24,825 nucleotides of DNA, taken from the IMG/VR virus record IMGVR_UViG_3300023179_000491, positions 1 to 24,825 of that record. The stretch is one strand, 5' to 3'. The notes beneath the pieces were generated by a model that searched no databases, was not told the DNA's origin, and was given only the letters and a program-made list of their open reading frames with translations. This document shows, in pieces, positions 5,493-24,825 of this stretch. The DNA is from a virus. Position numbers and translations under genes: made by a program. Position 1 is the stretch's first letter. Every line of letters starts with the position of its first letter.

Positions 5493-5972
5493 ATGCCATA
5501 TCCTCAAAAAGAAGAAATCGAAAAATTTAAAAATTATCATCGAGATTATTTTGTTAATTCCGTTGGAGTAACTGATTTTAAGTTTTTTGCTAAACCTGTA
5601 TTTGATTTTAATAATATAAAATTTATCCCAATATTTGAAAGGGAAGTCGATTTAAATAATGAAATGTATATTGAACTTGTAGATAAAGACAATCAACCAA
5701 TAGATGAAGTTAGAACACTATATAAATGGAAATGTTGTGATAAAAATCAATTAAAATCATATGTATCAAAACAATCAAAAAATAATGCTAATTACGTATT
5801 AATTCCTTTAGATGAATTAGAATTTATAAAAGATAATAATACAATATTTAATAGTCAGAATTTAAGTTTCTCAACAAATATAATAAAAAATATAAATAAT
5901 GATATTGATAATTTAAAAAAAGATATTGAAAAAATACAATTAAAAATAAACGGATTAACTAATTTAATATAA
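5493..5972 (+). CDS. hypothetical protein with C-terminal coiled coil
   Basis: 159 residues. Residues 1-115 are mixed alpha/beta with several F and Y residues and a WKCCDK stretch. The last ~35 residues form an amphipathic coiled-coil-like helix (INNDIDNLKKDIEKIQLKI), suggesting oligomerisation. The stop overlaps the ATPase start by one base (TAATG). Proteins of this kind are found beside RecA-fold ATPases in related phages, but I do not recognise it; function unknown. Confidence 0.65.
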   Translation: MPYPQKEEIEKFKNYHRDYFVNSVGVTDFKFFAKPVFDFNNIKFIPIFEREVDLNNEMYIELVDKDNQPIDEVRTLYKWKCCDKNQLKSYVSKQSKNNANYVLIPLDELEFIKDNNTIFNSQNLSFSTNIIKNINNDIDNLKKDIEKIQLKINGLTNLI

Positions 5973-8406
5973 TGGCACAAAGCATATTAATAATTGCAGA
6001 ATCTGGTTGTGGAAAATCTACATCAATCAGAACATTAAATCCTAAGGAAACAGTTGTAATAAATATTGCTTCAAAACCTTTACCATTTAAAGGTTGGCAA
6101 AGTAATTATGTTTTATATGACAAATCTGAAAATCCTAATGGAAATCTTTTAAACATATCAAATCCTACACATGTATATGGGGCAATGAAACACGTATCTG
6201 AAAAAATGCCTCATATCAAAAATTTAATTATTGATGATAAATAAAATATTGCATATTATCTACAATATTTGTATATTGTAGTATGAAAAGACTAACAAAA
6301 AAAGAAAGATTAAAGATTAAAATGGTAAAAAGAGATAAAGAAATAATAGTTGGTACATTACTTGGAGATAGTTGTCTTCGTTATGTACATTCTGGCTGTA
6401 CATCTCCTCAGCTTACCTTTTCTCATGCTGAAAAAAAACAAAGTATACTTTAAATGGAAGTATAATTTGTTAAGTAAGTTCTTTAATGGATATATTAAAA
6501 GAAACAAAAAATCTAGATTTAAAGAGTTGAATTTTGTTTATCAAACTCTTGGAAAAAACTTACCTTGTCTAATAAATTTTAGAAAAAAGTTTTATCTAAC
6601 TGGAAAAAAAGTCATTCCTTTTGATTTACTAGAAAAGTACTTTACAGCTAAATCTTTAGCCATTCTTTTTATGGATGATGGATGTATTAACTTAAAAACT
6701 ATCAATCTTAATCTTCAAAATTTTAAAGAAGATGAATTAAAAAACTTTGTAGTTTTTATAAAAAATAGGTTTAATATTGAATTCATTTTAAAAAAAGATA
6801 AAACGTTATATTTAAGATATAATAGCGTCAACACTTTTTTGAAATTAGTTAGTAAGCACATAACAAAAGATATGCAATATAAACTGCCGAGTTATCATTA
6901 AACTTCGTGAATCTGGGAAAGTCCTGAAGAGGGTAACCCTGTTCCAAGTGCTATAGAAATATAGTAAAGGATCAACGACTAGTACATACCTTCTTACCAA
7001 GTGGAGTTGAAGAAGATGAAGTACCAAGAGTGCGGAGCATAAAAGGGAGCCAACTCCTTAACTTTTATGAAGATATAGTCTGAACTGCATGCATAACAAA
7101 AAGAAGATGCAGAATTGTAAGATAAAGAGCTTACAAGTTAACAAATGTGGCAGTACATGTCTAGTTTTGAATATTTTGACAGAGCTAATGAAAAAGGGTG
7201 GAATTAAATCATGCCCTTGTAAAACCACTTAAATTGCGGGAATATCCTAAAGACTATGGTACTAACTTTATATAGTAATATAATAAAGGGTGTTGTTAAT
7301 CACAACAGTATAGTAAAAAGCTATAGTATGTACAATGGACAATCCGCAGCCAAGCTTCCCATAAAGGATGAAGGTTCAGAGACTAAAGAGGTGGATTTGA
7401 TTTATAAAAGTATTTATGCTATATTTGTAAACACTAATACAAATAATGGTATGAATAAAAAAACTGTTAAAGAATATAGAGCTTGGAAAGCTATGAAAGC
7501 AAGATGTAATGCCCCTTCTGCAAAAAAAGGAATTTATATGAATGTTGAAGTCTGTGAAAGATGGAAAACATCATATGATGAATTTTTAAAAGATATGGGT
7601 AAAGCACCTTCAGATAAACATAGCTTAGATAGAATTGATAACTCAAAAGGTTATTATCCAGAAAACTGTAGATGGACAACCCAAGATGAACAATGTAAAA
7701 ACCGAGGTACTTTTAATAAAGTATTTACATACAATAATGAAAGTATGGTTTTAAAAGATTGGGCTAAAAAATATTGTATAAAGTATACAACTTTATACAA
7801 TAGAATTTACAGACAAGGGTTAACTTTTGAAGAAGCTATTCTACTAGATAACTCTAAAGAATTTAATGAATTTAAAGGAACATTGAAAGAGATAACAGAA
7901 AAATTTTCTATTGTAAGATATCAAACAGTAATTGATAGAATGCATAGAAGTTGGTCTTTAGAAGATGCTTTATCAAAGCCTTTAAAAAAATCAAATATGA
8001 TATAGTCCGGCTATATATGAAAGTATATAGGTTTAACGATGATAAATTTACACAAATCGCAGCAAATTTAGCACAAGTTGCTAAAGCTCCAAAAGATTTA
8101 AGAAATGATTTATTTGTATTTTTTCTGACGCATTCTGAAGATATAATTGATAACAGTGGAAAAAGAAAAATAAAAGCAAAAACAATAGGAAAAATGATTG
8201 ATAATTCTCTCACTTTAGAAGGATTATTTTCTATTGTTTTATTTGGTAAAATATTAAAATCAGAAAATGGAAAAACACAATATGTTTTTACAACACAATC
8301 TGACGGTGAAACAACATGTAAAACACCAATGGAAATGTTTTCTACAGAATATGTACCAAATGATTTACAATTAATACGTGAAACAATAATTAAATACAAT
8401 AAATAA
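5972..8406 (+). CDS. RecA-fold (Sak4-like) phage ATPase, split by two group I introns
   Basis: Joined exons 5972-6238, 7148-7199 and 8039-8406 give a continuous 228-aa protein. Walker A is AESGCGKST (about 9-17). Walker B is IIDD (86-89) at the end of exon 1. Exon 2 supplies WQYMSSFEYFDRANEKG. The split codon T/AT gives Tyr, and exon 3 continues DKFTQIAAN, then FFLTHSED and KTIGKMIDN, which are hallmark stretches of this phage ATPase family. Sak4-like ATPases assist single-strand annealing and recombination, often with an SSB. Here the next gene is SSB-like, joined by TAATG. Splice sites are supported by P1 and P10 pairings (see introns). Without splicing, exon 1 would end after residue 90 at a TAA inside intron 1. 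Confidence 0.85.
6260..6281 (+). promoter_or_regulatory. hairpin immediately upstream of the LAGLIDADG start
   Basis: CTACAATAT (6260-6268) and ATATTGTAG (6273-6281) form a perfect 9-bp stem with a TTGT loop, ending one base before the ATG at 6283. It would block ribosome access, as RNA hairpins do for T4 intron-encoded endonucleases (known precedent); a translational-control role here is inferred. Confidence 0.4.
6283..6901 (+). pseudogene. LAGLIDADG homing endonuclease interrupted by a frameshift
   Basis: Intron-encoded DNA endonuclease with two LAGLIDADG motifs, which normally acts as a monomer cutting the intronless allele. The first motif, IIVGTLLGDS, is read from the ATG at 6283. That frame stops at 6452-6454 after a run of eight As (6431-6438). 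With seven As the frame would continue as AEKNKVYFKW into the downstream frame, which carries the second motif LAILFMDDGC and ends at TAA 6899-6901, about 205 aa in all. The break is therefore a +1 indel in a homopolymer: a real inactivating mutation, a sequencing or assembly error, or slippage during expression. The last codons encode the intron's guide and P10 strand, so this end is constrained by splicing. Confidence 0.8.
7148..7199 (+). CDS. 52-nt micro-exon (exon 2) of the Sak4-like ATPase
   Basis: Encodes WQYMSSFEYFDRANEKG plus the first base of a Tyr codon. Its 3' end AAGGGT pairs with guide GCCCTT (7213-7218) of intron 2, and its 5' end is fixed by the P10 pairing of intron 1. It is too short to be seen as a gene by itself. 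The protein sequence continues the family pattern after Walker B. Confidence 0.85.
7396..7427 (+). promoter_or_regulatory. consensus Bacteroidota promoter inside intron 2
   Basis: TTTG (7396-7399), a 20-nt spacer and TATATTTG (7420-7427) match the -33/-7 consensus exactly. The -7 element ends 23 nt before the HNH start at 7451, a typical distance. It would let the endonuclease be transcribed apart from the ATPase operon. About one chance match per window of this composition is expected, so position is the main support. Confidence 0.45.
7451..8005 (+). CDS. HNH homing endonuclease (intron-encoded)
   Basis: 184-residue nuclease that would nick or cut intronless copies of the ATPase gene to spread intron 2. 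The HNH core is HSLDRIDNSKGYY (H57, D60) followed by PENCRW (N72). An upstream Cys-rich segment MKARCN...VCERW is usual for this class. The C-terminal ~100 residues carry repeats like SMVLKDWAKKYCI and FEEAI, resembling helix-turn-helix DNA-binding modules of homing nucleases. Start choice: ATG 7451 follows the candidate promoter and gives MNKKTVKEYRAWKAM, a typical beginning. The frame is open further upstream but lies in the catalytic core there. A second HNH protein of the same type occurs at 24509. Confidence 0.85.
   Translation: MNKKTVKEYRAWKAMKARCNAPSAKKGIYMNVEVCERWKTSYDEFLKDMGKAPSDKHSLDRIDNSKGYYPENCRWTTQDEQCKNRGTFNKVFTYNNESMVLKDWAKKYCIKYTTLYNRIYRQGLTFEEAILLDNSKEFNEFKGTLKEITEKFSIVRYQTVIDRMHRSWSLEDALSKPLKKSNMI
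8039..8406 (+). CDS. exon 3 of the Sak4-like ATPase
   Basis: Begins with AT, completing the Tyr codon, then DKFTQIAANLAQ; ends at TAA 8404-8406. It carries the FFLTHSED strand and the KTIGKMIDN segment of the family. It has no start codon of its own: the in-frame ATGs upstream belong to the intron. Confidence 0.85.
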
Positions 8407-9023
8407 TGCTTAGCACATCAAACATCACCTTAAACGCAGTTTCTCCAGTTATAGAGCCGGGTAATCATACTGTTAAAATTAACAGTATGGTTTACAACCC
8501 AGCACCATATGATCAAGAAGTAATTATTATTACTTTTAATTTAGAAACAATGCCTATAGGCAATAATTTTAATGGTTTTTTAGTTGATCCAAATAACACA
8601 AACGGAGAAAGATATAAAGGACAAGTTGGAAGAGTTAAATTAAATCCTTATGGATTTAAAACTATGAAATTTGCAAATGGTCAAGAAATACAAAGAGATG
8701 TAGAAATTTTAAAATATATTTCTATAGTTGCTGATGCAACTAATCTTAGGGACAAACTTGATTTAATTGAAGCTCCTAATATTTTTAGCTTTTTAGATTC
8801 CTGTAAGAGTTTATTTGTAAATACAGCATTTTTTAATGCTTGTATTGGAGGTAAAGAATATAAAAATTTACAAAATTATATAAATATAGATTTGCACTTT
8901 CCAAAATTAAGTACAAAATCTTTGTTCATGACGAAACTAGATAATTCAAATGTTTTGCAATATGACGCATCTAAACATCTTAAAAAACTAGTTGAGAATA
9001 AGCAAGAAGAATTTGAAATGTAA
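8406..9023 (+). CDS. single-stranded DNA-binding protein-like
   Basis: 205-residue protein starting within the ATPase stop (TAATG). The N-terminal half is beta-rich: EPGNHTVKINSMVY, then QEVIIITFNLET, then KGQVGRVKLNPYGF, consistent with an OB-like fold. The C-terminus is acidic (NKQEEFEM), the typical protein-interaction tail of phage SSBs. It sits between the RecA-fold ATPase and the primase and is followed by a strong terminator. The SSB call rests on context, fold pattern and tail, not on a diagnostic motif. A 5'-proximal hairpin (8463-8492) may allow autoregulation. Confidence 0.6.
   Translation: MLSTSNITLNAVSPVIEPGNHTVKINSMVYNPAPYDQEVIIITFNLETMPIGNNFNGFLVDPNNTNGERYKGQVGRVKLNPYGFKTMKFANGQEIQRDVEILKYISIVADATNLRDKLDLIEAPNIFSFLDSCKSLFVNTAFFNACIGGKEYKNLQNYINIDLHFPKLSTKSLFMTKLDNSNVLQYDASKHLKKLVENKQEEFEM
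8463..8492 (+). promoter_or_regulatory. long inverted repeat near the start of the SSB-like gene
   Basis: CATACTGTTAA (8466-8476) and TTAACAGTATG (8479-8489) are perfect complements around an AA centre, extended to 14 pairs with one G.T wobble. It lies about 57 nt after the start codon with no T-tract, so it is not a terminator. It could be an mRNA site for SSB autoregulation, as phage SSB genes sometimes have, or a DNA operator. Confidence 0.4.
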
Positions 9024-9030
9024 AAAAATA

Positions 9031-9065
9031 AAAGGAGCTTTGAAATATAAGCTCCTTTTTTTTTA
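9031..9065 (+). terminator. intrinsic terminator after the SSB-like gene
   Basis: AAAGGAGCTT (9031-9040) pairs with AAGCTCCTTT (9049-9058), closing an 8-nt loop, and is followed by an unbroken T-run to 9064. It ends just before the primase ATG at 9068, leaving no room for a separate promoter or an obvious ribosome site between them. Confidence 0.85.
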
Positions 9066-9067
9066 TT

Positions 9068-10012
9068 ATGCTTAATACAAAAAATATTATAGTTGACATA
9101 AATCTTATTCCTAGTACTTGGGTTTTTGAATATTATTTAAATACAGAAAAATTACAAGGACAAAGAGTAAGAATTAAATCTGTTTGGAATACTGACGAAA
9201 GAACTCCAAGTATGTATTTGTTTGTTCATAACAAACAAAAAGAATATTACTTTAAAGACTTTTCTTCGGGAAACTATGGTAATAAAATAGATCTAGTTAT
9301 GTTGTTATATAATATAGATTATTATCAAGCTATAAATAAAATAATTAATGATTTTAAAGGAGAACCTAAGTTTGAAAGCATAAATCAAATAGAAGAAACT
9401 AAATTTGAAATTAAAGAAATAGAATTTAGAAGTTTAAATTCAAAAGATATATTATTTTGGAATCAATTTAATATTGATAAAAATCTATTAATAGAATATA
9501 ATATCAAACCAATATTTACTTTATCTATTCAAAAAAATAGACTTATTAAAATTGCTAATGACTATATGTATGCTTATAGTGATTTAAGCAATAATGTATA
9601 TAAAATATACCAACCATTTAATAAAGAATTTAAATTTTTTAATATTAAAAGTTATATAAGCGGAATAGAAAATTTAAAATATACAGATAATTTAATAATA
9701 TGCTCGTCTCTTAAAGACTGTTTATCTTTAAAATCTTTATATAATTTTGATGTAATAGCTCCAGAAAGCGAAACAACTATAATAAAAGAGTACATAATAA
9801 ATAATTTAAAAGAAAAATACAAAACAATACTTACATTATTTGATAATGATAATCCTGGAAATATGTGTAAAAAAAAATATTATGATTTATATAACATAGA
9901 TGGTATAATACTTCCTTTAGCAAAAGATATATCTGATTCAATTAAAATACACGGAATACAAAAAGTAAAAAATCATTTAAATAAATTACATGAGATTTTT
10001 TATACCGGGTAA
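9068..10012 (+). CDS. DnaG-like DNA primase with Toprim domain
   Basis: 314-residue primase that would lay down RNA primers for the phage polymerase. The N-terminal region has the layout of the CHC2 primase domain (DERTPSMYLF, then YYFKDFSSG, then GNKIDLVMLLY) but lacks its zinc-binding Cys/His residues. The Toprim region is seen in IICSSLKDCLSL, which replaces the usual glutamate-containing motif, then APESE, then LTLFDNDNPGN with the metal-binding DxD. Its 3' end overlaps the RusA gene by 23 nt. The start directly follows a terminator hairpin, so expression probably depends on readthrough or an internal upstream promoter. Confidence 0.78.
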   Translation: MLNTKNIIVDINLIPSTWVFEYYLNTEKLQGQRVRIKSVWNTDERTPSMYLFVHNKQKEYYFKDFSSGNYGNKIDLVMLLYNIDYYQAINKIINDFKGEPKFESINQIEETKFEIKEIEFRSLNSKDILFWNQFNIDKNLLIEYNIKPIFTLSIQKNRLIKIANDYMYAYSDLSNNVYKIYQPFNKEFKFFNIKSYISGIENLKYTDNLIICSSLKDCLSLKSLYNFDVIAPESETTIIKEYIINNLKEKYKTILTLFDNDNPGNMCKKKYYDLYNIDGIILPLAKDISDSIKIHGIQKVKNHLNKLHEIFYTG

Positions 10013-10385
10013 TGTACCAAGCTCAAAAAATGGCAGAAGATGGACTGGAAAATATTTTATAGCAAGTAAAACTGTTATTAATTATAGAAAAGCATCAAAA
10101 ATTTATTATATAAATCAATCCTCTAAATTTAAAAAAGAATTTAATAAATTTATTAAGCCGGTAATTATAAATTTTACTTTTATTAGAAATAGTAAAAGAA
10201 AATTCGATTATATCAATCCTGCACAAACAGTACAAGATGATATGGTCGAATATAAATGGATTGAAGATGATAATGCTGATATAATTATTCCTGGATTTAA
10301 TCAATATAAATATAATAAAGCTAAACCAGGAGTAATTATAGAAATATCAAATTTAAACAAATTAAAAAATGGAACAGACAATTGA
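9990..10385 (+). CDS. rusA: RusA-like Holliday junction resolvase
   Basis: 131-residue endonuclease of the RusA family, which resolves four-way DNA junctions as a dimer and so debranches replicating phage DNA. The N-terminus FFIPGNVPSSKN matches the family start (GxPxxKxR type). The catalytic acidic cluster is in FDYIN, VQDDM and EDDNAD (about residues 73-97), corresponding to the essential aspartates. The C-terminus is basic. It is translationally coupled by overlap to the primase and to the next small gene. Confidence 0.82.
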   Translation: MRFFIPGNVPSSKNGRRWTGKYFIASKTVINYRKASKIYYINQSSKFKKEFNKFIKPVIINFTFIRNSKRKFDYINPAQTVQDDMVEYKWIEDDNADIIIPGFNQYKYNKAKPGVIIEISNLNKLKNGTDN

Positions 10386-10683
10386 TGAATTTAAAACAAT
10401 GTTGCAAATTATAAATAGTAATGATAAAGATATTGCTGTAAATAATATAATTAACGGAAATTTTGATAATATTTTTACAAAAATGATAATCAAAAGCATA
10501 GAAAAAATTAAAGATAAATTAGAAATAATTCGAGAAATTGAAAGTAAAAGTAATTATACAAACTTAATCGATGTATCAATAGAAGATATTAAAGAAGATT
10601 TAGAAAAAAATTCTCAATTTAATAATATATATGAATATTTTATTGAAAATTTTAAAAACATAAAATATGAACACGGAAGATAA
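10369..10683 (+). CDS. small helical hypothetical protein
   Basis: 104 residues, almost entirely helical and acidic (for example SIEDIKEDLEKN), without known motifs. It overlaps both neighbours (17 nt each side), so it belongs to the primase-RusA-VWA operon. Not recognised; an accessory or adaptor protein is possible. Confidence 0.6.
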   Translation: MEQTIDEFKTMLQIINSNDKDIAVNNIINGNFDNIFTKMIIKSIEKIKDKLEIIREIESKSNYTNLIDVSIEDIKEDLEKNSQFNNIYEYFIENFKNIKYEHGR

Positions 10684-11821
10684 AATAGCAAAAGCTAGTA
10701 AAAATCTTTTATTTAATGAAGCTTTTTACGGATTATTTCTAACAACACTTAATAAAAAATATAACACTTCTGTTCCTACAGCCGGAGTATGTTTAAATGG
10801 AATTAATTATGAATTAATAATAAACAGAGATTATGTAAATGATCTTTCAATGAATCATACTCTCGGATTATTAAAACATGAGCTTTTACATATTGCTTTT
10901 AATCATATATTAATATTTAAAGAATTTAATAGCCATAAAATTTTTAATATCGCAGCAGATTTAGAAATTAATCAATATATAGATGAGGAATTTTTACCAC
11001 AAGGAGGATTATTACTATCAACTTTTCCAGAATTAAACTTACCCAAAAAAGCAGGTTTACATGAATATTATAAAATATTAGAAAATGCAAAAGAAAATGG
11101 CAATTGTCCTTCATTAAATAATATATTACAACAAATGGAAGGTGATTCTCCTTATAATCATGATACTTGGCAAGAATTAAACAATTTATCAGAAGCAGAG
11201 AAAAAACTAATAGATAAACAAAAAAAATATATATTTAAGGAAATTAAAAAATCAATTGAAAAGTCTAATGGAGTAATACCAAATGAATTAAAAGAAATAA
11301 TAGATTCTTTAGATGAATTAGAAGAATCTAAATTTGACTGGAAATCTTACTTTAGAAGGTTTATTGGAAATTCTTATATAATATATACAAAAAAACTAAA
11401 AAGAAAATTTAATAAAAGATATGAAGAAAATCCAGGTTTAAAAATTAAATCTAAAAATCACATATTAGTTGCAATAGATACATCTGGATCTGTAAATAAT
11501 GATGAATTAAAAGAATTTATTAATGAAGTTAATCATATTCATAAATCCGGACATTTAGTTACATTAATTCAATGCGATAGTAATATCAATTCTGTAGAAA
11601 AATTTAAAAGAAATACACCCGTAACTATATTGGGAAGGGGAGGAACTTCTTTTCAACCTGTAATTAATTATTTTAATGATAAAAAAATATATACAACACT
11701 TGTATATTTAACTGATGGTGAATGTGAAGCTCCAATAAATACACCTAAAAATACATTGTGGGTTTTAAGTTCTCAATCAAAATTAACAAATCATTTGCCA
11801 GGTAAAACTATTAAATTATGA
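10667..11821 (+). CDS. putative metallopeptidase with C-terminal VWA-like domain
   Basis: 384-residue protein of the DUF2201 type. Residues ~60-110 carry a zincin motif KHELLHIAFNH (HExxH at 71-75) with a downstream acidic helix (AADLEINQYID). After a helical linker, residues ~262-384 form a von Willebrand factor A-like domain: AIDTSGS (D271) of the MIDAS, GRGGTSF with the third MIDAS residue, and YLTDGECEAP. Its stop overlaps the MoxR-type ATPase start (ATGA). MoxR AAA+ proteins with VWA partners act as chaperone-like machines that insert metals or remodel complexes (as RavA-ViaA), so these two probably form one machine. Its target in a phage is unknown. Confidence 0.8.
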   Translation: MNTEDKIAKASKNLLFNEAFYGLFLTTLNKKYNTSVPTAGVCLNGINYELIINRDYVNDLSMNHTLGLLKHELLHIAFNHILIFKEFNSHKIFNIAADLEINQYIDEEFLPQGGLLLSTFPELNLPKKAGLHEYYKILENAKENGNCPSLNNILQQMEGDSPYNHDTWQELNNLSEAEKKLIDKQKKYIFKEIKKSIEKSNGVIPNELKEIIDSLDELEESKFDWKSYFRRFIGNSYIIYTKKLKRKFNKRYEENPGLKIKSKNHILVAIDTSGSVNNDELKEFINEVNHIHKSGHLVTLIQCDSNINSVEKFKRNTPVTILGRGGTSFQPVINYFNDKKIYTTLVYLTDGECEAPINTPKNTLWVLSSQSKLTNHLPGKTIKL

Positions 11822-14407
11822 GCGCAGTAACACTTAATATAACTGAATTAAAAACCTTAATTCAACATATAATAAATAATAATAGATTTTTACAAAATCA
11901 GGATAAATTGCCTGTATCTGTAGAAGTTATTGGTGAATCAGGGATTGGAAAGACATCATCTATAATGCAAATTGCAAAAGAAAACAATCTTAATTTTGTA
12001 AAATTAAATTTAAGTCAAATTGAAGAATTGGGGGATTAATATTAAGTTTTATTTTGTATATTATTAAAATAAAAACCAACCAGGTCCCCTTAAAATTCCG
12101 TGAACTCAGGGAACATCCTGCAAAGGACAATCCTGAGCCAAGTTATATAGAAATATATAGAAGGTGCAACGACTAGATATAGTAATCTTACCGGGTGGTG
12201 CTGAAGATGAAATATCCACGAGCGCGGAACAACAATTTATATCTACCAAGATTTAAAGATTGTTGATGATATAGTCTGAACTGCATAGTAATATGCAGAA
12301 CTATAGGATAAAGAGCCTATAGGATAACATTATGTTAGTTGGTTTCCCAGTCCGACAATTTCAAATGTATAAAGAACAAAAAGTTACAGACGGTAATTTA
12401 AATTATTTGACTAATCAAAAAGTTGATTCTGTAAAAAAAGTAGGTGTTTGGGTAGATGAACAAACAATGAATGAATATCTAAAGAACGGATATAAAATAA
12501 CAGGAAAAAATAGAATGTCTTATTGCGCTCCAGAATGGATTGCTGATAAAAAAGAAGGTGGTATTTTATTATTAGATGACTGGAATCGTGCTCAAAAATA
12601 AATAGGAAACTATTTGTTCCGGTTAACTAGAAGTTGTATATTAGAGTATGGAGAATTTATTTAAAACAAGATCACTAGCTAAAACTTATAATATTTCTGG
12701 AATTTATCTTATACAGATAGGTAACAAAATGTATGCAGGTGGTTCAGTATCTATAGGTAAAAGACTTCTTACTCATAAAAGCCGTTTAAAAAATGCTAAA
12801 CACAATAATCCAATCATGATTAATTGCTTTAATAAATATGGTGAAAATCATTGTAATTTTAAAGTATTAGAAGAATGTGAGGAGAATGTATTAGTAGAAA
12901 GAGAAAAATTTTATATAGATGTTCTTAAACCAGAACTAAATATAGAATTAGATCCTATAAAACAAAACGGCAGCTATAAAGCCAAAAAAGTTTATCAGTA
13001 TGATTTAGATGGAACTTTTATTCAAGAACATGAGTCAGCATCTTCTGCTGAAAGATCTCTTAACAGATCTAATACAAAAGTATCTCAATGTGCTATGGGT
13101 AAGAGAAAATCCGCATACGATTACTTATGGTCTTATAACAAAGTAGACAAGCTGGTCTATGAAAACAACAGCTCTAAAGCTAAAGCAAAAAAAGTATCAC
13201 AGTACACTATGGAAGGTGAGTTAATCATAACTCATGACTCTGTAGCTGCTGCTGTAAGATCACTTAACTTGCAAGAAAATGCAGCTACTAATATTAGTAG
13301 TGCTGCTTTAGGAAATACTAGCCGCGCATATAATTATGTGTGGAAGTATGAATAAATCTGATGTGGGCACGTAATCCTGTGAATTGCTGGAACACCCTTA
13401 GAGCCAAGTAAGCTACAACATAATCTGTAAAGATAAATGTGAATGCTGAAAATTACTTGGATTGGGCAATCAGCAGCCAAGTAGCCTAGAAATAGGTTGA
13501 AGGTTCAACGACTAGTGTATGGAGTCTAAACAAGTAAAGTTGTAGATAGTAAAACACCAAGAGCGCAGGACACCTTTAAAAGGTGAAGATATAGTCTGGA
13601 CTATAAAGAAATTTATAGAAAATCAAGTTAAATGCTTGATTGTTAACAAATTAGGACACTAGATTTATTCAGGCGTGTATGGAATTAATTGACCGACAAA
13701 CTTATATATCATGGTCTCTTCCAAAAGATTGGCATATTATTCTTACAGCAAATCCGGATAACGGAGAATATTCGGTTAATTCTATTGATGTTGCTCAAAA
13801 AACAAGATATATATCTGCTAATTTAAAATTTGATATTGATATATGGGCTAAATGGGCTGAAAAAGAAAATATAGATAATAGATGTATTAACTTTTTATTG
13901 CTTCATCCAGAACTTGTAAGTACAGAAACTAATGCAAGATCAATAACAACATTTTTTAATTCAATATCTAGCTTTGAATCTTTTGAGGATAATTTACATT
14001 TAATTCAATTAATTGGTGAAGGATCAGTTGGAGATACTTTTGCATCTATGTTTACACTATTTATTAATAATAAATTAGATAAACTAGTTAATCCTAAAGA
14101 ATTATTATTAAATGCTAATGAAACTTATATTTTAAATTTATTAAAATCAAATATTAATCATAATAATTCTTATCGAGCAGATATAGCTTCTATTTTAGCA
14201 ACAAGATTAACAAATTTTACTTGTTTATATGCTGAAAATAATACTATTACTCCTACGATAACGGAAAGATTAATTAAATTATGTACTGAAGATTATTTTA
14301 CAAATGATTTAAAATATTTAATTGTTAGAGGAATTTTTAATAACAATAAACAAAAATTTGCAAAATTATTAATGAATCCAGAAATTATTAAAATGACAAT
14401 GAAATGA
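11818..14407 (+). CDS. MoxR-type AAA+ ATPase, split by two group I introns
   Basis: Joined exons 11818-12036, 12335-12592 and 13655-14407 give 409 residues. Exon 1 holds Walker A GESGIGKT (39-46) and ends ...QIEELGD. Exon 2 begins LVGFPV, the conserved MoxR segment, and ends with Walker B GGILLLDDWNRA (148-159). Exon 3 begins DTRFIQACMELIDRQ and has sensor 1 ILTANPDNGEY, then a helical C-terminal region. AAA+ ATPases of this class form hexamers and work with VWA proteins; the partner is the upstream gene (ATGA overlap). The unspliced message would yield only the Walker A fragment (73 aa). A terminator-like hairpin just past the stop lies in the next gene. Confidence 0.88.
12037..12334 (+). 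ncRNA. group I intron 3, compact and without an ORF
   Basis: 298-nt ribozyme intron. P1: GGGGAT (ending 12036) pairs with guide GTCCCC (12084-12089) with U.G at the splice site. P10: AACCAAC (12074-12080) pairs with the 3' exon GTTGGTT (12338-12344). Core: TCCTGAGCC (12131-12139), GCAACGACTAG (12165-12175) and GATATAGTC (12268-12276) forming P7; last base G12334. Nineteen bases from GATATAGTC onward (12268-12286) are identical to intron 1, and much of the core aligns, so the two share a recent ancestor. Confidence 0.9.
12335..12592 (+). CDS. exon 2 of the MoxR-type ATPase
   Basis: 86 codons from LVGFPVRQ to LDDWNRA. The ATG at 12332 belongs to the intron and is not a start. The exon's last bases CGTGCT pair with the guide GGCACG (13366-13371) of intron 4. 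Confidence 0.88.
12593..13654 (+). mobile_element. group I intron 4 with a GIY-YIG gene in the P1 loop
   Basis: 1062-nt intron just after Walker B. P1: CGTGCT (12587-12592) with GGCACG (13366-13371), U.G at the splice site. P10: the bases before the guide (13351-13364) are complementary to the 3' exon (13656-13669) at 12 of 14 positions, unusually long. Core elements are GAATTGCTGGAA (13380-13391), AATCAGCAGCC (13470-13480), GTTCAACGACTAG (13503-13515) and GATATAGTCTGG (13588-13599); GACT/AGTC form P7. Last base G13654. The endonuclease gene lies between the 5' splice site and the guide. Confidence 0.88.
12648..13355 (+). CDS. GIY-YIG homing endonuclease with two NUMOD1-like repeats
   Basis: 235-residue intron-encoded endonuclease that would cut intronless MoxR-type genes. 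The GIY-YIG nuclease domain occupies about residues 15-105: SGIYLIQIGNKMYAGG (GIY 18-20, YAG for YIG at 29-31), R39 in IGKRL, and the conserved E in VEREKFYI near 86. Two tandem ~50-residue repeats follow, starting KKVYQYDLDG (about 114) and KKVSQYTMEG (about 180), each with an S/A-rich helix and a final Y-x-W motif. These match the NUMOD1 DNA-recognition module. The stop codon lies within the extended P10 strand of the intron. A weak promoter-like pair (TTTG 12613, TATATTAG 12637) lies upstream, probably too close to the ATG to serve. Confidence 0.88.
   Translation: MENLFKTRSLAKTYNISGIYLIQIGNKMYAGGSVSIGKRLLTHKSRLKNAKHNNPIMINCFNKYGENHCNFKVLEECEENVLVEREKFYIDVLKPELNIELDPIKQNGSYKAKKVYQYDLDGTFIQEHESASSAERSLNRSNTKVSQCAMGKRKSAYDYLWSYNKVDKLVYENNSSKAKAKKVSQYTMEGELIITHDSVAAAVRSLNLQENAATNISSAALGNTSRAYNYVWKYE
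13655..14407 (+). CDS. exon 3 of the MoxR-type ATPase
   Basis: 250 codons beginning DTRFIQAC, then MELIDRQ. The internal ATG at 13679 would start eight codons too late and lose the Walker B-linked helix. The exon carries sensor 1 and the C-terminal helical domain. Confidence 0.88.
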   Translation, partial: DTRFIQACMELIDRQTYISWSLPKDWHIILTANPDNGEYSVNSIDVAQKTRYISANLKFDIDIWAKWAEKENIDNRCINFLLLHPELVSTETNARSITTFFNSISSFESFEDNLHLIQLIGEGSVGDTFASMFTLFINNKLDKLVNPKELLLNANETYILNLLKSNINHNNSYRADIASILATRLTNFTCLYAENNTITPTITERLIKLCTEDYFTNDLKYLIVRGIFNNNKQKFAKLLMNPEIIKMTMK

Positions 14408-15381
14408 TAGAACCTCACATACTATCTTATTTTAATTTAGACGAAGCCTCCATGTTGGAGGTTTCGTTTTCTAATTTTGCTGAAACGCATTCATATTTTA
14501 GAGTTGATTCTGAATTATATTATGATTTAATGAATAAATTAAAAAAAAATACAACATATAATTCAACAAAAAATAAATTATATTTATTACCAAATTCTAC
14601 AACATCTCTGTTAAGAGTAAAAAGCATATTAAAAGAAGAAAAAAACTATTTAACAGGAGACTTAGAAAATTCTGATTTATTAATTACTCATGATAATTTA
14701 GAATATTGCCAAGGAAGATACGATACTGATTTAATTAAAAATTCAAGGTATTCATTTTTACGCCCACAATATGCAATTTTGCATAAAAAAACAATATATC
14801 TTAATGCTAATAATTGGAAAAATCGATATAAATTGAAAAACTTTTTAAATGTGTCTTCTGATCATATGAACTATTTAGATTCTGTTTTTTTAGTAAAAAG
14901 TCAAATTTTAAAGATTATTTATACAATTGAAAATAAAAATATTGGAATTATACATGTTGACGATATTCAATCTACTAATAAAAATTTAATATTATCAGAA
15001 GAGCTTGCCGAAAATATTATAGCAATGTTAAATAATAATGATAAAGATAATTTAAACATTTTAGCAAAATTACTTCCCAATGTTGTTATAGATAATCCAT
15101 ATTATATGTGGCAAATACTTAAGAAAAAGCCAAAATTATTATATATTTTTCGTCGAGATAAAGATGTAACCAAGTGGATTAATAAAAATAATCTTCAAGA
15201 ACTATATGATTTAGACACTGAAGATTTTATAATTAAATCATGCGAAGAAAATACAATGAACAATAAAATTTTTAGTATTTTAGAAAAAGAAAATAGAAAA
15301 TTAATATCTATAAGTAATGGAAAATTATATAATGTTAAATTTTTTTTAAAAGATGAATACAAAAAATATACCCAAAATTAG
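14404..15381 (+). CDS. hypothetical protein, 325 aa
   Basis: Cytoplasmic protein of unknown family, AT-biased composition (N, K, I, L rich), starting within the stop of the MoxR-type gene (ATGA). Mixed alpha/beta N-terminal half (SRYSFLRPQYAILHKK) and helical C-terminal half (AENIIAMLNNNDKDNL, ILKKKPKLLYIF). No motif recognised. A strong terminator-like hairpin occupies codons 13-22, so the extreme N-terminus is constrained by RNA structure. It overlaps the next gene by 29 nt. It may work with the MoxR-VWA pair above or the nuclease below; nothing in the sequence decides. Confidence 0.7.
   Translation: MIEPHILSYFNLDEASMLEVSFSNFAETHSYFRVDSELYYDLMNKLKKNTTYNSTKNKLYLLPNSTTSLLRVKSILKEEKNYLTGDLENSDLLITHDNLEYCQGRYDTDLIKNSRYSFLRPQYAILHKKTIYLNANNWKNRYKLKNFLNVSSDHMNYLDSVFLVKSQILKIIYTIENKNIGIIHVDDIQSTNKNLILSEELAENIIAMLNNNDKDNLNILAKLLPNVVIDNPYYMWQILKKKPKLLYIFRRDKDVTKWINKNNLQELYDLDTEDFIIKSCEENTMNNKIFSILEKENRKLISISNGKLYNVKFFLKDEYKKYTQN
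14441..14478 (+). terminator. intrinsic terminator-like hairpin inside the 14404 gene
   Basis: ACGAAGCCTCCA (14441-14452) pairs with TGGAGGTTTCGT (14456-14467) across a 3-nt loop, 12 bp with one G.U, followed by a T-rich tract. It lies 37 nt after the ATG and would end the primase-to-MoxR transcript while sitting in the next gene's coding sequence. Confidence 0.7.
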
Positions 15382-24252: not shown

Positions 24253-24509
24253 AAATTAGTGTTTTTTCGCTCGTTATAGTCGTTTGTGTATTGTTCATCC
24301 CAACCAAGGAACGTATGTCTCCCCACCTGGCTCGGCCAAACCTCAAACTGCTCCCAATCTGCATCGGGTTCGTTTGTCCACAGCAAGTCCACGCAGTAGG
24401 TGTTGTCGATTTCGCCCAACTCAACGCAGGTGGCATCGGGTTGGGATAGCGTGAAGAAAGCCTCAAACTCGGCTTGGGTGTTCCATTTGTACTTCCTGAA
24501 GGTAGCCAT
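24249..24509 (-). CDS. small hypothetical protein of the lysis operon, 86 aa
   Basis: Begins MATFRKYKWNTQ, acidic, with several Trp (VDLLWTNEPDADW, EQFEVWPSQVG, FLGWDEQY). No membrane helix, so not a holin. Proteins of this size and pattern are seen beside amidase genes in Bacteroidota phages, but the function is unknown to me. Overlaps the HNH stop upstream (TAATG) and the amidase start downstream (ATGA). Same GC-rich composition as the amidase. Confidence 0.7.
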   Translation of the reverse strand: MATFRKYKWNTQAEFEAFFTLSQPDATCVELGEIDNTYCVDLLWTNEPDADWEQFEVWPSQVGRHTFLGWDEQYTNDYNERKNTNL

Positions 24510-24825
24510 TACGTTAGTCGGTTTATAAATACAACATTTTCGGGTAAACGATTAAAAGCCCTCATATACCTGAGTTTTTTAATAGTACACCCTAAAACAA
24601 TCTTAGCTTCTTCTTGGCAATAATTTATTCCGTTAATGGAATAGAATACATTTCTTGATGTATTTCTGTTTTGTTCTAAATTAGTTGCCCACCTGCAGTT
24701 TTCCTTAAAATATCCTTTTGAATTATCAATTCTATCCAAAGATGTATTTGCAGGTCTTTCGCCCATATCTTCAACAAAACACAAAAATGAATCCCAACGA
24801 GGGTCGTATGTTATCCCTTTTAAGA
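24509..24825 (-). CDS. HNH endonuclease, free-standing, 5' end outside the window
   Basis: The frame is open to the window edge on the minus strand: YDPRWDSFLCFVEDMG precedes the HNH core SLDRIDNSKGYFKENCRW, followed by a basic helix-turn-helix-like tail (EEAKIVLGCTIKKLR). It is the same class as the HNH enzyme of intron 2, though the residue before SLDRID is Thr where that one has His. No group I core is visible in the window next to it, so it appears intronless, inserted upstream of the lysis genes with a TAATG overlap. AT-rich like the replication genes, unlike its neighbours. Confidence 0.8.
   Translation of the reverse strand, partial: LKGITYDPRWDSFLCFVEDMGERPANTSLDRIDNSKGYFKENCRWATNLEQNRNTSRNVFYSINGINYCQEEAKIVLGCTIKKLRYMRAFNRLPENVVFINRLT

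Follow-up and report, generated by a model that had tools for sequence, protein, structure and literature searches.

Four putative group I introns in two ATPase genes of a phage fragment, and predicted promoters at the start codons of their nuclease genes

How can two phage ATPase genes, each interrupted twice, still encode complete proteins, and how would nuclease genes lodged inside such interruptions be expressed? We addressed these questions with IMG/VR record IMGVR_UViG_3300023179_000491, a viral fragment of 24,825 bases that was analysed over its whole length (hereafter the window). An earlier note, made from the DNA letters alone, had proposed that a RecA-fold ATPase gene and a MoxR-type ATPase gene each contain two group I introns carrying homing-endonuclease genes of three families. 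Here, we find that a Sak4-like and a MoxR-type AAA ATPase gene are, with high probability, split by four group I introns. While these four introns belong to an already known kind of element, the placement of a predicted host-type promoter at the start of nuclease genes appears to be new.

Two split ATPase genes and their intron cores

All four junctions proposed in the earlier note (6238/7148, 7199/8039, 12036/12335 and 12592/13655) are upheld (Table 1). Removal of 6239-7147 and 7200-8038 gives an uninterrupted protein of 228 amino acids (aa) that belongs to the Sak4-like single-strand annealing ATPase family (phrog_2872, E 8e-61), and removal of 12037-12334 and 12593-13654 gives an uninterrupted 409-aa protein that matches phrog_1297 ATPases. 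The in-frame continuity announced for these genes was also confirmed with intronless relatives. Indeed, single uninterrupted matches spanning all the junctions were obtained at 149 loci with the Sak4-like protein and at 128 with the MoxR protein, and both proteins align with them end to end, the best matches being at 65-77% identity. Relatives possess intronless alleles at the matching sites, a mark of mobile introns. Reading from the exon into any of the four introns, translation would soon meet an in-frame stop past the 5′ junction. Finally, site 3 lies at the 100th percentile of protein conservation and the other sites at the 58-82 percentiles; taken together, they give no significant bias of insertion toward the most conserved protein motifs (P 0.17 and 0.06).

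The pairings expected to define the splice sites were recovered as the earlier note had described them. In each intron, the guide sequence forms six out of six P1 pairs with the bases that close its own 5′ exon, U.G being the pair at the splice site, compared with only 4-5 pairs with the exons of the other introns. P10 comprises 7, 5, 6 and 6 pairs in introns 1 to 4, respectively, that of intron 4 being the weakest and having mismatches. The P7 pair, reported as GACT/AGTC, can be written GACTA/TAGTC in all four introns, and the final intron base is a G in 4/4. The core of intron 4 has in addition a P5 insertion.

To describe the fold, we aligned 11 cores of the type shared by introns 1, 3 and 4 (these three plus eight found in relatives) over a structure running from P3 to P9.1 and including the P7 pseudoknot. 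In this alignment, 89.2% of the cells are paired, against 33-48% when the structure is slid, and changes on both sides are seen in 22 of the 48 core pairs. The covariation score is 0.423 versus 0.171 for shuffled alignments, and none of 500 shuffles reached it. The core of intron 2 stands outside this alignment and was assigned to group I via Rfam.

The comparison with the Rfam group I model (RF00028, gathering score 50 bits), which the earlier note had suggested as a check, is strong for intron 4 (102 bits, E 8e-26) and gives intron 3 in two pieces (43 + 29 bits). Introns 1 and 2 were missed when the whole window was searched, and were found at 38.7 and 38.4 bits (E about 1e-7) when their region was searched alone. 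These below-threshold scores limit the Rfam support for both introns, but the form of intron 2 present in one relative (L151), which has no open reading frame (ORF), reaches 56 bits and is thus over the gathering threshold.

Could the interruptions be nuclease genes inserted without a working ribozyme, the ATPase genes being either broken or made as split proteins? Nuclease genes are indeed present in three of the four insertions, and one of them is frameshifted. Nevertheless, intron 3 retains the full fold with no ORF, the core covaries across the 11 introns, the guides match their own exons and exact removal restores conserved protein motifs; we consider this explanation very improbable. Even less credit can be given to inteins removed at the protein level. 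While crAss-like phages carry inteins too (PMC7886860), inteins are excluded by the stops that follow the junction in the exon frame of every insertion. Moreover, one insertion measures 298 nucleotides (nt) without any ORF, and the Rfam matches are to group I. Taken with the pairings above, the sequence argues firmly for four group I introns that split two ATPase genes at the junctions given here.

Table 1. Positions of the exons, predicted introns, guide sequences, nuclease genes and predicted promoters in the two split genes.
Feature	Positions	Strand	Observations
Sak4-like AAA ATPase gene (phrog_2872, Pfam AAA_24), exon 1	5972..6238	+	uninterrupted in relatives
Predicted group I intron 1, 909 nt	6239..7147	+	after IDD of Walker B motif; exon frame stops 2 codons in
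Predicted Bacteroidota-type promoter TTG-N20-TATATT	6249..6277	+	ends 5 nt before LAGLIDADG ATG
LAGLIDADG gene, N-terminal frame	6283..6453	+	first motif GTLLGDS; stops after A8 run
LAGLIDADG gene, C-terminal frame	6437..6901	+	Pfam LAGLIDADG_2, E 1.5e-21; stop overlaps guide sequence region
Intron 1 guide sequence GTTATC	6891..6896	+	P1 6/6 with GATGAT of 5′ exon
Sak4-like gene, exon 2, 52 nt	7148..7199	+	exon continuity
Predicted group I intron 2, 839 nt	7200..8038	+	within Tyr codon of GYDKFT
Intron 2 guide sequence GCCCTT	7213..7218	+	P1 6/6 with AAGGGT; P10 ATGAT/ATCAT
Predicted Bacteroidota-type promoter TTG-N20-TATATTTG	7397..7425	+	ends 25 nt before HNH ATG
HNH endonuclease gene	7451..8005	+	phrog_3377, E 1.6e-43, residues 3-182; gene end runs through P8 and P7 3′ strands
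Sak4-like gene, exon 3	8039..8406	+	exon continuity
MoxR-type AAA ATPase gene (phrog_1297), exon 1	11818..12036	+	profile match, exon continuity
Predicted group I intron 3, 298 nt, no ORF	12037..12334	+	within conserved motif ELGD/LVGFP (slash, insertion point)
Intron 3 guide sequence GTCCCC	12084..12089	+	same in site-4b introns of L158, L162, L171, L174
MoxR-type gene, exon 2	12335..12592	+	exon continuity
Predicted group I intron 4, 1062 nt	12593..13654	+	directly past Walker B LLDDWNRA
Predicted Bacteroidota-type promoter TTG-N20-TATATT	12614..12642	+	ends 5 nt before GIY-YIG ATG
GIY-YIG endonuclease gene, NUMOD1 repeats	12648..13355	+	PF01541 23.1 bits vs cut-off 22.6; upstream of guide sequence
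Intron 4 guide sequence GGCACG	13366..13371	+	P1 6/6 with CGTGCT
MoxR-type gene, exon 3	13655..14407	+	exon continuity

A promoter motif at nuclease start codons

In the window, the two-part motif TTG-N20-TATATT lies upstream of the three nuclease genes and of none of 29 other genes. When the introns of relatives are included, TTG-N19/20-TAT[AC]TT is found upstream of 11/12 intron nuclease genes and, in 10 of them, ends 5-6 nt before the ATG; shuffled versions of these 70-nt upstream regions contain it in 0.2-3% of cases. The box TTGTATATT taken alone was rejected as a promoter signal, as it also occurs inside coding sequence, and only the two-part spaced motif discriminates.

With the motif fixed, we scanned 2.14 Mb of related loci holding 1873 distinct ORFs of at least 80 aa. 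The motif stands 4-7 nt before the start codon of 13 of them, and all 13 are nucleases by Pfam: eleven GIY-YIG (one of which, in L166, is slightly under the Pfam cut-off), one PDDEXK_5 and one Endonuclease VII. Four were first met in the scan (L170:14030, L152:1739, L175:7058 and L019:831), and two are clearly outside introns, the Endonuclease VII gene by the start of a polymerase-like gene and the PDDEXK_5 gene by tRNA genes. Altogether, the 13 genes represent about six independent nuclease lineages. The set of 26 nuclease-like ORFs was seeded with these 13, which compromises the Fisher p of 2e-26 as a test; the result free of this bias is 13/13. Before ordinary ORFs, the same promoter is mostly located 17-33 nt upstream of the ATG and in 0/1847 cases at 4-7 nt; spacers of 19 and 20 are seen in 24 and 29 cases, while other spacers average about 7 (largest 17).

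Both genes located outside introns have particular surroundings. The free-standing Endonuclease VII-type gene (L175, about 6980-7590, minus strand) sits at the 5′ end of the polymerase-like gene, whose first codons are apparently duplicated on both sides. The PDDEXK_5 nuclease gene (L019, about 760-1440), with its leaderless-type promoter, comes right after the apparent 5′ half of a tRNA.

The -7 box of Flavobacterium psychrophilum, TAnnTTTG, extends from -12 to -5, and only 5.5% of the mRNAs of this species lack a leader (PMC9723704). In this register, the nuclease ATGs would fall at about +1. A promoter that ends 4-7 nt before the ATG thus predicts leaderless nuclease mRNAs driven by the host polymerase. 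Instead, the long pre-mRNA may itself be the message from which the nucleases are made, TTG-N19/20-TAT[AC]TT being a translation signal or simply inherited sequence. Several of the 13 genes are homologous, as inheritance would have it, and Bacteroidota, which do not use Shine-Dalgarno sites, tune initiation by other features of the start region (PMC6847099). Yet the two-part spacing is shared with ordinary genes, where its usual distance from the ATG is that of promoters and a spacer of 19 or 20 is preferred. In addition, the motif precedes unrelated families, namely GIY-YIG, Endonuclease VII, PDDEXK_5 and, in the window, LAGLIDADG. We regard a translation signal or inherited sequence as rather unlikely.

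The following scheme can be proposed from the sequence. Each transcribed intron would fold, its guide pairing with the flanking exons through P1 and P10 to set the splice sites, and self-splicing would restore the 228-aa and 409-aa proteins. Introns 1, 2 and 4 would spread, or would once have spread, by homing, in which an intronless allele is cleaved by the endonuclease and receives a copy of the intron during repair. Given the strong statistical pattern described above, the nuclease genes are most likely transcribed separately, from Bacteroidota-type promoters inside the introns. In introns 1 and 4, the start codon is predicted at, or within one nucleotide of, the transcription start. It may work at the 5′ end of a short leaderless mRNA, while the same AUG inside the pre-mRNA would be mostly ignored, which would keep ribosomes off the folding ribozyme. 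We give this leaderless expression about an even chance.

Several observations weigh against this scheme. Introns 1 and 2 remain under the Rfam threshold when taken from the window, and the frameshift in its LAGLIDADG gene may have deprived intron 1 of autonomous homing. Thirteen of the 26 nuclease-like ORFs are without the tight promoter. Leaderlessness is also not universal, since the HNH promoter of intron 2 leaves a leader of about 20 nt and the HNH gene of L171 is without the strict motif. Finally, the motif was first noticed on the genes of the window itself, and several of the 13 nucleases are mutual homologues.

Beyond our sample, the annotated nucleases most closely related to that of intron 4 are found in GIY-YIG introns of two crAss-like genomes (Crassvirales), Kolpuevirus 'frurule' and phage cr111_1, where they lie within or beside the DnaB helicase gene. 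TTG-N20-TATATT is present upstream of the GIY-YIG gene in both genomes and ends 18 and 25 nt before the ATG, respectively, predicting a short leader. The free-standing nuclease of cr4_1 has no TTG-N20-TATATT upstream.

How does this arrangement compare with that of T4? The T4 td, nrdB and nrdD introns (I-TevI, I-TevII and I-TevIII) also contain nuclease genes with their own intron promoters, uncoupled from the interrupted gene. The T4 nucleases are served by an internal middle or late phage promoter and by a hairpin masking the ribosome site of the long transcript; loss of the hairpin lets ribosomes into the intron and lowers splicing (PMC2988022). Here, in contrast, a host primary-type promoter is predicted to end at the start codon, and there is no Shine-Dalgarno site to hide. 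It is about equally likely to be true or false that, in this phage group, unrelated families of homing endonucleases use a host-type promoter with its transcription start at the start codon, reached by convergence or held in common, and that this separates nuclease output from ribozyme folding without a T4-style hairpin. We found no report of a promoter at a nuclease start codon in the literature searched, which excluded most subscription journals. This bears on how intron nuclease genes are expressed in Bacteroidota phages, without the ribosome-site hairpin of T4. If the promoter rule is true, homing endonuclease genes, including those of novel families, could be found from DNA alone.

Intron cargo and the same sites in relatives

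As to cargo, the families listed in the earlier note (LAGLIDADG, HNH, none and GIY-YIG for introns 1 to 4) are correct, with the reservation that the LAGLIDADG gene is not intact. It is read in two frames, with a switch at a run of eight A at about 6429-6436, and no intact frame holding both motifs was found; this frameshift could be due to decay, sequencing error or slippage. Introns 1 and 4 accommodate their nuclease gene in the P1 loop, downstream of the 5′ splice site and ahead of the guide, and intron 2 in the P8 loop. The HNH gene probably starts at 7451 and not at 7256, and its product has no Pfam match. A pattern search in viral contigs gave no relatives of the LAGLIDADG and HNH proteins.

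The introns of relatives were located through exon-junction patterns, and the related contigs or loci compared with the window are designated by L-numbers. Site 1 is occupied in L151, L237 and L239 by an intron with the same core (85% identical), in which a GIY-YIG gene placed after P9 replaces the LAGLIDADG gene of P1. At site 2, the same three contigs have a 261-nt intron with no ORF, and L171 has an intron with a homologous HNH gene. Intron 4 recurs at its site in L163, L164 and L165, each time with a homologue of its GIY-YIG gene; L166 shares the 5′ junction and the nuclease gene, and its record ends ahead of the ribozyme core. Only 3 nt downstream, a further site (4b) holds introns with GIY-YIG genes in L158, L170, L171, L173 and L174, and, in L162 and L176, an intron that closely resembles that of L174 and retains just a C-terminal remnant of the nuclease gene. 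For site 3, the pattern used gave 55 matches, none of them in a MoxR gene, and no further intron-bearing contig.

Three of the four sites are thus occupied in relatives with different, decayed or no nuclease cargo. Read from the sequences, these states are the cycle of gain, replacement and loss expected of homing introns, within one viral group. They make up a well-mapped series, available in nature for a single set of sites, in which the stages of homing would be represented by the empty site, the nuclease-bearing intron, the intron with a swapped nuclease and the intron that has lost it.

The earlier note had also stated that the introns were restricted to P-loop ATPase genes. This is an accident of the fragment. 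Indeed, L151 has a group I intron in a VWA-type gene (about 5950-7050; Rfam 33.6 bits, below gathering), and the DNA polymerase gene of L170 (about 12440-14509) shows at least two interruptions with nuclease genes and group I features. On this last ground, the idea that the introns avoid polymerase genes was rejected. Another intron, in the phi14:2 polymerase gene (L245, about 10580-11000), contains a small ORF (about 58 aa) in which no nuclease motif is apparent.

The origin of intron 3 deserves separate consideration. Its guide and its core are those of the site-4b introns, and it is 82% identical to the intron of L162, while the introns of L158 and L162, which occupy the same site as each other, are 76% identical. 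Trees built on full cores group intron 3 with L162 and L174 (100/99) and reject a single clade of site-4b introns (p-AU 0.0096). According to our own reading of these sequences, intron 3 and the site-4b introns would form one lineage established at two sites of one gene, and peripheral parts would have been exchanged in a mosaic way. Alternatively, intron 3 may have arisen separately and merely exchanged peripheral domains with site-4b introns, without any move between MoxR sites. When P7.1/P7.2 and P8 are left out, the test has less power: the core no longer tells intron 3 apart from the site-4b introns (p-AU 0.22), the grouping of intron 3 with L174 and L162 is rejected in turn (p-AU 0.016), and a clean tree-based proof of a move from site 4b fails. 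The 3′ part of intron 3 is also as similar to site-1 introns (79-84%). Against a separate origin stand the whole-core trees and the identity of the guide GTCCCC; we consider it quite possible, at somewhat less than even chances. A move could have taken place at the DNA level or by reverse splicing, an established idea, which is unproven for bacteria and phages (PMC3984707).

Intron 3 also retains, at 12054-12062 in its short P1 loop, the sequence TTGTATATT, perhaps a relic of the promoter of a lost nuclease gene.

Known phage introns and gene context

Dense group I introns have been published for crAss-like phages, in the Delta and Zeta groups, including in the AAA ATPase 'ATP_43b' (Yutin et al. 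2021, PMC7886860), and three introns in one gene are known from Staphylococcus phage Twort (Landthaler and Shub 1999, as cited in PMC3073962). Because of these precedents, the unusualness claimed in the earlier note is weaker than stated. As in the crAss-like phages of that study, we are dealing with phages of Bacteroidota or their relatives that have many nuclease-carrying group I introns in core replication genes. What differs is that exact junctions, fold, guides and occupied or empty sites are given here, and that the MoxR gene and promoters are absent from the accessible part of its text. Twort likewise combines several group I introns, some of them within the same gene; its host phylum and the genes concerned are different.

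The host of the virus is probably a member of Bacteroidota, and the phage appears to be a relative of crAss-like phages of which the cultured members are only distant. Indeed, the annotated phage closest in its polymerase is Cellulophaga phage phi14:2, at 33% identity in PolB. In phi14:2, the Sak4-like gene, the next gene and the primase gene follow each other in the same order as in the window. The window is without structural genes; in its relatives, TerL was matched to phi14:2 in 3/5 records and MCP in 4/5, at 23-26% identity. The genomes of these relatives exceed 115 kb, and the fragment corresponds to a phage replication block. It comprises genes for an SNF2 helicase, a uracil-DNA glycosylase, a DnaB helicase, the Sak4-like ATPase, an SSB-like protein, a primase, a RusA-like protein, a VWA-type protein, the MoxR-type ATPase, a PD-(D/E)XK nuclease, a family B DNA polymerase and others; the SSB, RusA, glycosylase, VWA and PD-(D/E)XK names come from sequence reading and synteny with phi14:2, not from profile matches.

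Between the SSB-like gene and the primase gene, an inverted repeat (AAAAGGAGCTTT...AAGCTCCTTTT, 9029-9063) followed by a T run is likely an intrinsic terminator. At the end of the window, an HNH endonuclease fragment (phrog_3377; 24509-24823, minus strand), truncated by the end of the record, is possibly part of a further mobile element.

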